A DNA stretch of 64,000 nucleotides from Pedobacter nototheniae (GTDB lineage: Bacteria; Bacteroidota; Bacteroidia; Sphingobacteriales; Sphingobacteriaceae): NCBI RefSeq assembly GCF_004335085.1, contig NZ_RQRS01000027.1, forward strand, positions 1 through 64,000. Reading direction: 5' to 3'. The notes beneath the pieces are model-generated. The model was not told the origin of the DNA and did no database searches. It saw only the letters and a list, made by a program, of their open reading frames with translations. Below, piece after piece: positions 26,895 to 42,890 of this stretch (its first letter is position 1; each line of letters begins with the position of its first letter). Made by a program: the position numbers and the translations under genes.

Positions 26895-27539
26895 ATGCAG
26901 GATACGATAGATAGCACCATTACTTTTGTAAAAAAAACGCTCGAAAATGCAGAGGCTGGGCACGATTGGTTTCATATAGAGCGTGTTTATAAAACCGCTT
27001 TAAACATCAATAAAAAAGAAAATGGTGATGAGCTTGTCATTGCTTTTGCTGCTTTACTACATGATATTGCCGATCCAAAATTTAATAATGGGGATGAAGA
27101 ATTAGGTCCTAAAATTGCCCAAGACTTTCTAAAATCTATCAACGTTAAGGCAGAAACCATTACACATGTAAAATTGATTATTCAAAACATGTCATTCAAA
27201 AACAGTTTTGATGATGGAGGTTTTACATCTAAAGAAATGCAAATTGTACAAGATGCAGATCGCCTGGATGCAATTGGTGCTATTGGCATTGCACGGGCCT
27301 TTACCTATGGCGGTTTTAAGAATCGTGTTTTGTATGATCCAGCTATTAAGCCTGAGCAACATCTATCAAAAGAAAGCTATAAAAACACCAACGCTCCCAC
27401 TATAAATCACTTTTACGAAAAACTCCTTTTACTTAAAGATATGATGAATACTGAAGCAGGTAAAACAATTGCTGAAGAAAGACATCTTTTTATGCTTCAA
27501 TACTTAGAGCAATTTTATAAAGAGTGGGAAGGAAATTAA
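26895..27539 (+). CDS. HD-domain phosphohydrolase
   Basis: Metal-dependent phosphohydrolase of the YedJ/YpgQ-like HD group, probably acting on nucleotides. Metal ligands: His in AGHDWFHIERVYK (about 23-27), HD pair in AALLHDIADPKF (about 57), and the later Asp in QDADRLDAIGAIGIARAF (about 117), followed by the GG(F/Y)KNR segment. Length 214 is normal. It lies 75 bp after the XRE gene and 84 bp before the radical SAM repair gene on the same strand; a TACCTTTG -7-like box lies about 24 bp upstream of its start. Confidence 0.9.
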   Translation: MQDTIDSTITFVKKTLENAEAGHDWFHIERVYKTALNINKKENGDELVIAFAALLHDIADPKFNNGDEELGPKIAQDFLKSINVKAETITHVKLIIQNMSFKNSFDDGGFTSKEMQIVQDADRLDAIGAIGIARAFTYGGFKNRVLYDPAIKPEQHLSKESYKNTNAPTINHFYEKLLLLKDMMNTEAGKTIAEERHLFMLQYLEQFYKEWEGN

Positions 27540-27583
27540 ACATTCCTAAATAGAGTACAATCAAGTATAAATACTAATATTAT

Positions 27584-27624
27584 TAGCTTTTTATTTGCTA
27601 TTTTTGTTAGCAAATAAAAAGCTA
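27584..27624 (+). promoter_or_regulatory. 17-bp perfect dyad centred on a -7 box and ending on the radical SAM start codon
   Basis: TAGCTTTTTATTTGCTA (27584-27600) is repeated in exact inverse at 27608-27624 around a 7-base centre. The A of the ATG is the last base of the second arm. TATTTTTG (27599-27606), a full -7 match, occupies the centre. Each arm itself begins TAGC and ends GCTA. The hairpin is not followed by T residues, so a repressor operator or a start-codon-masking hairpin is more likely than a terminator. Confidence 0.65.
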
Positions 27625-28880
27625 TGTATGATCGTATTCGAGAAAAACTAAATATTCTTGCTGATGCTGCAAAGTATGATGTTTCATGTTCATCTAGTGG
27701 CGGCACACGTAAAAATGATAATAAAGGCATAGGCGACAGTCATTCTTCTGGCATTTGCCACACCTATACAGAAGATGGTCGATGTGTTTCTTTACTCAAA
27801 ATTCTTTTAACCAACCATTGCATTTTTGATTGTGCTTTCTGCGTTTCCAGAAAAAGTAACGATGTAAAACGAGCTGCATTTACTGTAGATGAGGTTGTGG
27901 AGTTAACCATGAATTTTTACCGGCGTAATTATATAGAGGGCTTATTTTTAAGTTCAGGGATATTTAAAAATGCTGATTTTACAATGGAAAGGCTTTTGCT
28001 TGTGGTAAAAAAATTAAGATTAGAGCAGCGCTACAACGGATACATCCACCTAAAAACTATCCCTGGGGCTAGTGATGAGCTTATTAAGGAAGCTGGATTG
28101 TATGCTGATAGAATGAGTATTAATTTAGAAATGCCTACAGAAGCTGGTTTAAAATTATTAGCTCCAGAAAAAAGCCACGCGGAAGTGATTAAACCATTAA
28201 GTTTTGTGCAGGAAAATATTGCTCAATTTGCTGCTGATAAAAAATTAATTAAGCACATTCCAAAATTTGTTCCAGCAGGGCAAAGCACACAAATGGTTAT
28301 TGGTGCAACACCAGAAACCGATAAAGATGTAATGTATATGGCAAATGCGTTTTATAAAAACTTCTCCTTAAAAAGAGTTTATTATTCTGGCTACGTACCC
28401 ATTAGCAATGATAGCAGAATGCCCATATTAGGCACTCAACCGCCCCTTTTAAGAGAAAATAGGCTTTATCAAACCGATTGGCTAATGCGCTTTTACGGCT
28501 TTAAAGTTCAGGAGATTTTAAATGATGCCAATCCCAATCTTGATGTAGATATTGATCCAAAATTAAGTTGGGCCATTAGAAATATGCAGCATTTTCCTGT
28601 TGATATTAATAAAGCAGATTATGCAATGATTCTTCGCATCCCTGGAATTGGAGTAATGTCCGCTAAAAAAATTGTTCAGGCCAGAAAATTTGGAAAACTA
28701 AGAATTGACCAGTTAAAAAAAATTGGTGTTTCTTATAATCGAGCGCAATATTTTATCACGTGTGCTGATAGTCCATATCAATTAAAAGATTATCAGGGCA
28801 CACAAATTAAAGCCTTTATTTTAGCAGAAAGTCAGAGCAAGTATTTAAAAACAGATAGCAACCAATTGATTTTATTTTAG
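27624..28880 (+). CDS. Putative DNA modification/repair radical SAM protein (TIGR03916-like)
   Basis: Radical SAM enzyme of a family predicted to act in DNA metabolism. The cluster motif is CIFDCAFC, Cys66, Cys70 and Cys73 (CxxxCxxC). Extra cysteines at 22, 45 and 54 in a conserved-looking N-terminus (DVSCSSSGG, GICHTY, GRCVSL) could bind a second metal centre. After the TIM-barrel-like part, residues about 328-380 form helix-hairpin-helix DNA-binding repeats (ILRIPGIGVMSAKKIV). Length 418 is typical. The next gene is the standard partner of this family, 41 bp downstream. In other bacteria the partner region includes a uracil-DNA glycosylase-like domain. Substrate and reaction are unknown. 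Confidence 0.9.
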   Translation: MYDRIREKLNILADAAKYDVSCSSSGGTRKNDNKGIGDSHSSGICHTYTEDGRCVSLLKILLTNHCIFDCAFCVSRKSNDVKRAAFTVDEVVELTMNFYRRNYIEGLFLSSGIFKNADFTMERLLLVVKKLRLEQRYNGYIHLKTIPGASDELIKEAGLYADRMSINLEMPTEAGLKLLAPEKSHAEVIKPLSFVQENIAQFAADKKLIKHIPKFVPAGQSTQMVIGATPETDKDVMYMANAFYKNFSLKRVYYSGYVPISNDSRMPILGTQPPLLRENRLYQTDWLMRFYGFKVQEILNDANPNLDVDIDPKLSWAIRNMQHFPVDINKADYAMILRIPGIGVMSAKKIVQARKFGKLRIDQLKKIGVSYNRAQYFITCADSPYQLKDYQGTQIKAFILAESQSKYLKTDSNQLILF

Positions 28881-28921: not shown

Positions 28922-29686
28922 ATGACTTACATTTTTGATGGCTCTATGCCTGGACTTTTTACAGCAGTTTTTGAATGGTTTGATCGCAAGCCGGGAAAAG
29001 TTGTGCTAAAATCTGTAAGCGTTTTTCAACCAGAAGCTTTTGCAGAATCATTTACCGTGATAACCGATCATCAAAAGGCAGATCGAGTTTGGGCTGGACT
29101 ACAAAAAAAACTAAAAAAGGAATGGTTGCGCAAGTTTTATTGTTCTTACTTATCAGAAATTCAGGAAGCCTACAACCATCTTTTTCAATTTGCGCTTTAC
29201 ATGTTTAAAAGTGTTAATGGCGCTGAAAATAATTATGGAAATGAGTATGTAATAGCGCTTTCAAAATATGCTAAAAGTGTTGAAAGAGAGAAACATCGGA
29301 TGGAGGCTTTCATCCGTTTCCAAAAAACTGGCGATGGCATGTTCTATGCCGCCATTGATCCAGATTTTAATGTTTTGCCCTTAATATCAAATCACTTTAA
29401 AAATAGATACGCCGATCAGCAATGGATTATTTATGATTTAAAACGAAAATTTGGGCTTTATTATGATTTAAATACTGTTGAAGAAATTACAATGAGTTTT
29501 ACAGATCAGCTTAATAAGAAAAAACCAGATGCCGTTTTTATGGACGAAAAGGAAGAACTGTATTCTATTTTATGGAAAGATTATTTTAAAAGTGCAAATA
29601 TTGTAGCTCGTAAAAACACTAAGCTCCACTTACAGCATGTACCTAAACGGTACTGGAAATATTTGACGGAAAAGCAGCTTAGTTAA
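28922..29686 (+). CDS. TIGR03915/DUF4130-family putative DNA metabolism protein
   Basis: Partner of the radical SAM repair protein. The start TYIFDGSMPGLFTAVFEWFDRK and the later FIRFQKTGDGMFYAAIDPDFNVLPLISNHF with DQQWIIYDLKRKFGLYYD are characteristic of the family. Length 254 is normal; some homologues carry a C-terminal uracil-DNA glycosylase domain, which is absent here (the protein ends RYWKYLTEKQLS). Family annotations describe it only as probable DNA metabolism. It shares the radical SAM promoter and overlaps a TTAACA repeat at its stop codon that precedes the next gene. Confidence 0.87.
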   Translation: MTYIFDGSMPGLFTAVFEWFDRKPGKVVLKSVSVFQPEAFAESFTVITDHQKADRVWAGLQKKLKKEWLRKFYCSYLSEIQEAYNHLFQFALYMFKSVNGAENNYGNEYVIALSKYAKSVEREKHRMEAFIRFQKTGDGMFYAAIDPDFNVLPLISNHFKNRYADQQWIIYDLKRKFGLYYDLNTVEEITMSFTDQLNKKKPDAVFMDEKEELYSILWKDYFKSANIVARKNTKLHLQHVPKRYWKYLTEKQLS

Positions 29687-42849: not shown

Positions 42850-42890
42850 AACAAAAAAGGGCTGTACGCAATGTACAGCCCTTTTTTGTT
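42850..42890. terminator. Bidirectional terminator between dps and C1 peptidase genes
   Basis: AACAAAAAAGGGCTGTAC pairs perfectly with its complement across a 5-base loop, giving T-runs on both strands. It serves the two convergent genes. Confidence 0.92.

Follow-up and report, generated by a model that had tools for sequence, protein, structure and literature searches.

The closest described counterparts of this promoter are operators of LexA-type SOS repressors in Bacteroidetes. A non-canonical LexA of this group recognizes CTAA-N5-TTAG, and for several species COG1573-COG4277 belongs to its predicted regulon (Sanchez-Osuna et al. 2021, PMC8565304). EMSA with the P. actiniarum regulator revealed that both half-sites and the length of the spacer are needed; half-site substitutions abolished binding by the protein of the relative studied there, and dyad-adjacent substitutions were without effect on binding by the relatives' proteins (PMC8565304). 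A sister LexA group, mainly from Flavobacteriaceae, uses the operator GGA-N5-TCC (PMC8565304). Literature searches on Pedobacter SOS, on hairpin locks on read-through SOS mRNA and on COG4277 with COG1573 and LexA, judged by titles and the first parts of abstracts, gave nothing nearer than this study, and they yielded no binding or expression data for the present species.

We analysed a 64,000-nucleotide stretch of Pedobacter nototheniae DNA (the window) and focused on the region upstream of a putative DNA-repair radical SAM gene. We propose that this region is the SOS-controlled promoter of a pair of DNA-repair genes, and that its two sites, A and B, are bound by the non-canonical LexA of this genome; we put the probability of this reading at roughly 0.92. 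Four observations support it: site A matches the published motif exactly, A and B occur genus-wide, a candidate repressor gene carries the same box and other SOS genes in the genome are boxed. The features of the locus are as follows.

26895..27539, plus strand: gene for an HD-domain phosphohydrolase, 214 aa (Pfam HD; NF007515 E 3.6e-29, below the model cut-off)
27574..27586, no strand: site A, CTAATATTATTAG, an exact match to the published SOS operator motif CTAA-N5-TTAG
27584..27624, no strand: perfect 17-bp dyad, made up of the end of A, the spacer, site B and a lineage-specific mirrored arm up to the start codon
27597..27611, no strand: site B, a second, degenerate dyad, GCTAT-TTTTG-TTAGC, merged with the -7 box (pattern CTA-NN-TTTG-N-TAG)
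27599..27606, plus strand: -7 promoter element TATTTTTG, of the TAnnTTTG type (from the sequence and the consensus in PMC6847099)
27624..28880, plus strand: gene for a TIGR03916 putative DNA modification/repair radical SAM protein with a helix-hairpin-helix motif, 418 aa (NCBIfam E 1.1e-204)
28922..29686, plus strand: gene for a TIGR03915 family putative DNA repair protein, 254 aa (NCBIfam E 2.9e-78; Pfam DUF4130)

The radical SAM protein scored 680 bits against the TIGR03916 cut-off of 343.5 and matched Pfam Radical_SAM and HHH_3. Its gene probably shares an operon with the TIGR03915 gene, which follows after a 41-nt gap. TIGR03916 probably corresponds to COG4277; on that mapping, the target gene would be of a type found in the predicted regulon of the Bacteroidetes non-canonical LexA. 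Assignment of the second gene to COG1573 is doubtful because a Pfam scan found no uracil-glycosylase domain in the 254-aa protein. The match of this gene pair to the published COG1573-COG4277 is therefore certain for neither gene and weaker for the second. Our odds for an SOS-controlled promoter are unchanged by this, as they rest on site A, on its conservation and on the repressor. Upstream, the HD gene is co-directional with the TIGR03916 gene and ends 84 nt before its ATG, making it a possible source of read-through RNA.

The two sites are placed where a repressor would be expected to act. The -7 consensus TAnnTTTG sits at -12 to -5 (PMC6847099), so that for a box at 27599-27606 transcription is predicted to start near 27611, with a leader about 13 nt long. 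Relative to this predicted start, site A (ACTAATATTATTAGC in its 15-mer version, 27573-27587) spans about -38 to -24, over the -33 region, and site B spans about -14 to +1. Because both overlap promoter positions, one would expect polymerase to be blocked by repressor bound at A or at B. In the mechanism that we envisage, a LexA made of a CI-type HTH and an S24 peptidase would occupy the tandem dyads, of which A covers the -33 region and B both the -7 box and the start, and would keep RNA polymerase off the promoter; DNA damage would lead to RecA-stimulated self-cleavage of the repressor and so to induction of the gene pair. For this species we infer the binding to A and B, the cleavage and the induction. 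A reading made from the sequence alone had already suggested a damage-responsive operator overlapping the promoter, and it was very probably right, given that the conserved part matches CTAA-N5-TTAG.

Site B is not a canonical box. It reads CTAT-NTTTG-TTAG, with T in place of A at position 4 of the left half, and of the 116 same-genus orthologues with the site, 110 have T at this position and 6 have C. Considering that half-site substitutions abolished binding by the relative's protein, the repressor may bind B weakly, only cooperatively or not at all. The promoter resembles the published non-canonical LexA operators (PMC8565304) in the exact motif at site A, in the HTH and S24 protein with a box before its own gene, and in having two sites, at least two boxes being reported there for several promoters. 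It appears to differ from the operators described there in having a second site that is degenerate and fused with the -7 box, and a long perfect mirrored extension that reaches the start codon.

Conservation across the genus supports the two sites rather than the long dyad. A TIGR03916 protein search matched 124 of 145 same-genus genomes, and the upstream region was taken from each, the present genome included; the nearest named orthologues of the radical SAM gene are from Pedobacter species. Common to these regions are two tandem short dyads, rather than one long one. Site A has the consensus RCTAA-N5-TTAGY, and CTAA-N5-TTAG was present in 113/124 regions; most of the 11 without a perfect site had a near match by eye. 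Site B has the consensus RCTAT-N-TTTG-TTAGY, and CTA-NN-TTTG-N-TAG was found in 116/124, leaving 8 without it. Both patterns occurred in 105 of the 124 regions, with centres 20-23 bp apart in 102 and 24 bp apart in two; in the remaining one, both patterns fell on the same site. In a control stretch from -390 to -294, neither the site A pattern (0/123) nor the site B pattern (0/123) was found. These results very probably place a poorly understood radical SAM repair gene under SOS control across one genus, with the exact box in 113/124 regions, and the near-fixed two-site architecture provides exact sites to mutate.

We also searched for both published boxes within 200 nt upstream of the best 80 of 586 named orthologues. 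CTAA-N5-TTAG preceded 29 of these 80, against 0.6 expected from mononucleotide shuffles, and nine of the 29 were named Pedobacter. The sister-group operator GGA-N5-TCC, a different motif that is absent at the present promoter, preceded 18 of the same best 80 (1.1 expected from mononucleotide shuffles). Neither box was found within 200 nt in 33 of the best 80; these include seven Acinetobacter, five Flavobacterium and three Chryseobacterium loci. As a separate observation, the radical SAM gene was unmatched in 21/145 genomes of the genus (16/132 among good assemblies), and two genomes (G031 and G166) each gave a pair of matches, one of which was reported to contain a stop; loss or decay of the gene seems to be frequent in the genus.

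A candidate for the repressor is encoded elsewhere in the genome. A Peptidase_S24 search of the genome returned three places, one of which, on contig C10, encodes a 258-aa protein with matches to HTH_3 (4e-14) and Peptidase_S24 (2.3e-6). The CTAA-N5-TTAG box CTAAAATAGTTAG lies 31 nt before the ATG of this gene, and no such box was found in the fetched regions of the other two places. The segments ASAGYL, GDSM and YKR, seen by eye in the 258-aa protein, may correspond to the Ala-Gly cleavage bond and the Ser-Lys pair expected of such a repressor. A second S24 protein, of 270 aa (contig C18, L068 892-1704), contains AYAGYL and GDSM and had no CTAA-N5-TTAG box in its fetched region; it is perhaps a diverged paralogue of the SOS repressor.

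To find possible further members of the regulon, we searched the genome with a sequence-only promoter profile and obtained 49 matches at E up to 10. This promoter itself scored best (8.5e-9); all others, starting at 0.006, were individually weak. ORFs were inspected at 12 profile loci, where 5/12 boxes precede a gene for DinB, RuvB, RecA, the S24 repressor or another radical SAM protein, each supported by Pfam. Of the other boxes, one lies ahead of a gene of the 2'-5' RNA ligase family and one ahead of an HD gene. The scan covered the ORFs at ten of the 12 loci; for three more of the proteins it gave no Pfam match, one of them a 245-aa protein that is only tentatively named ImuA. A search of the genome for the tandem arrangement of A and B returned this promoter only. 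Separately, at about 125760 of contig C11 (L034 1497-1533), a perfect dyad with 16-bp arms is centred on CTAA-N5-TTAG and abuts the ATG of a gene in the 2'-5' RNA ligase family that has a co-directional upstream neighbour: the same design in another sequence.

The most conspicuous feature of the locus, and the one on which the sequence-only reading had centred, is the perfect dyad. Its arms, 27584-27600 (TAGCTTTTTATTTGCTA) and 27608-27624 (TAGCAAATAAAAAGCTA), are complementary at 17/17 positions around a 7-base loop, and the final base of the right arm is the A of the ATG (27624), as had been described. Its rarity is borne out by 40 first-order-Markov resamplings of the window (loops of 3-10), in which the longest perfect arm was 15 and arms of at least 17 occurred in 0/40. 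The RNA of 27575-27660 has a folding energy of -23.5 kcal/mol (z -5.4), and none of 200 dinucleotide shuffles folded as well. The dyad as a whole was found at a single place in the 5.26-Mb genome with up to three mismatches allowed. The window holds five other perfect dyads with arms of 13-18, so that long perfect dyads are not unique to this promoter; a perfect dyad at 42850-42890 has 18-bp arms (AACAAAAAAGGGCTGTAC and its complement) and a 5-base loop, and looks like a bidirectional terminator. Two simple explanations of the promoter dyad were rejected. An intrinsic terminator is ruled out by the sequence after the right arm, TGTATGATCG, which indeed lacks a T-run as noted before, and a repeated element is ruled out by the single genomic place at up to three mismatches and by an arm frequency in the window that is not above chance.

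The dyad is composite. Its left arm runs from the last bases of A through the spacer to the first bases of B, and its right arm joins the end of B to a mirrored copy that reaches the ATG. A -7 element does lie at the centre, but the full octamer TATTTTTG reaches back over the final two left-arm bases; the TAGC and GCTA tetramers that had been likened to half-sites include the half-sites of the Bacteroidetes SOS repressor operator. The proposal that the 17-bp dyad is itself the functional unit is not supported, since it spans from the end of A into B plus a lineage-specific copy that is not found genus-wide. When conservation before orthologues was checked, the operator was conserved and the dyad largely was not (10/116 regions at least 90% paired; perfect arms of at least 11 in 14/116). 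A start-masking hairpin in the gene's own mRNA is also argued against, because the predicted start near 27611 lies within the right arm and would leave the left arm out of the transcript; on that prediction, only read-through RNA could fold. The perfect mirrored extension from site B to the ATG is a lineage-specific addition, and because most orthologues lack it, the switch probably does not need it. The promoter adds to the published operator family.

To describe the distribution of such arms, we left the 8/124 regions without site B out of the counts of pairing, arm length and orientation. Over positions 8-17 from the site B centre, the 10/116 orthologues with at least 90% pairing compare with 0 to 2/116 at 24 other centres. 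Mean flank pairing over the 116 was 0.449 at the true centre and 0.453 at the best off-centre position; because the true-centre mean is no higher, the excess is limited to a tail of very long dyads. On a FastTree tree of 121 genes (L251-L253, broken or partial, were left out), long dyads occupy at least four places by eye, with arm sequences that differ between them: L230; L199/L208/L212; a clade from L234 to L213; and this genome beside the near-perfect L159. Long perfect arms, of up to 21 bp, also surround single boxes before orthologues outside the genus and in one divergent genome within it; at L250, L363/L116, L350 and L125, perfect arms of 16-21 bp flank single SOS boxes.

Of the explanations for the long arms, the one that survives best is possible, if short of probable: a mutational by-product, in which a short palindromic operator seeds template-switch (quasipalindrome) correction, one arm is copied onto the other and the dyad lengthens without selection. 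Such a process would account for differing perfect arms in several lineages, and L159 is set apart from this genome by a concerted one-base change, in the T-run on one side and in the A-run on the other side of the dyad (T4/A4 against T5/A5). The template-switch mechanism is known in E. coli (PMC7202029), and, as at those sites, a near-palindrome would have been made perfect; unlike the sites described there, the core here is probably a functional operator, and the process is inferred. By itself it does not explain maintenance of the dyad in the 11-tip clade (L234 to L213), within which L026 differs from L210 at both partners of two base pairs, nor would it explain the weak orientation bias described below.

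That bias bears on a second explanation, which we consider unlikely: that the operator is also a hairpin lock. The arms would fold against the start codon in mRNA reading through from the HD gene, and only mRNA from the gene's own promoter would be translated, giving tighter control. The 17-bp stem adjoining the ATG (z -5.4), the co-directional gene ending 84 nt upstream, the predicted start inside the right arm and the recurrence of long dyads with different arm sequences all fit this explanation, and in Flavobacterium johnsoniae structure close to the start codon accompanies weaker translation (PMC6847099). To compare arm length with the orientation of the upstream ORF, we examined 134 loci, in 83 of which there were 86 boxes. 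The comparison used 68 loci (25 co-directional only, 39 divergent and 4 neither), from which duplicate contexts, second boxes and nine loci bearing the name Pedobacter had been removed; a few from the same genus (L121/L362, L247-L250) were retained. Perfect arms of at least 12, core half-site included, were found in 5/25 co-directional-only loci and 0/39 loci with a divergent upstream ORF (p 0.007). This contrast disappeared for arms of at least 10 with one mismatch allowed (11/25 against 12/39, p 0.21), and a rank test of arm length against orientation over the 68 loci was not significant (p 0.15). Within the genus, 114 regions have site B together with a co-directional ORF. Perfect arms of at least 11 occurred in 9/27 of them with the upstream stop up to 60 nt from the ATG and in 5/87 others, most of the nine belonging to one clade; such arms were absent from 100 of the 114. 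The arm-length cut-offs were chosen after seeing the data, the species are related and ORF orientation was called mechanically, so the association of long arms with co-directional upstream genes is weak, exploratory and confounded by clade.

Base pairing gave a similarly divided picture of the hairpin lock. Mismatches in 20 long same-genus dyads comprised 10 that are G-U pairs on the sense strand, 4 that would be G-U on the antisense strand and 11 others, which counts in favour of the lock, but the R/Y pair of site B showed no strand bias over all 116 regions (27 against 24). Also against the lock, recA and ruvB in this genome have co-directional neighbours, and their boxes lack long arms. A broader proposition is a little less likely still: some Sphingobacteriaceae would use SOS operators as RNA locks as well, with the repressor site inside a long perfect dyad next to the start codon, so that mRNA arriving from an upstream gene would fold and stay untranslated and SOS-induced mRNA, started inside the dyad, would be free. 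The recurring long dyads pose the question of whether an SOS operator also controls translation of read-through mRNA or whether palindromes grow by template switching.

We are more doubtful of an extended operator, in which one or two repressor dimers would touch the outer half-site of the mirrored arm, where a further GCTA lies at 27621-27624. The additional half-sites within the mirrored arm, and flanks that appear symmetric by eye at several boxes in this genome, would agree with such contacts. The arm sequences nevertheless vary by species and are absent from most orthologues, and dyad-adjacent substitutions left binding by the relatives' proteins unaffected (PMC8565304). It is very improbable that the box is instead the operator of the neighbouring XRE protein (26542), which the sequence-only reading had suggested as a possible regulator: proximity is the one point in its favour, the box is a known SOS motif that also precedes SOS genes elsewhere in the genome, and this protein has 92 aa, Pfam matches restricted to HTH families and no S24 domain found, whereas the HTH and S24 protein with its own box is encoded elsewhere.

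A second lineage-specific type of dyad was seen at six loci of the set (L016, L020, L025, L027, L231 and L235). It is centred about 4 bp to the right of site B and also ends at the start codon; it is perfect in L016 (AATACTATATTTG/CAAATATAGTATT) and L025, and perfect or nearly so by eye in the other four.
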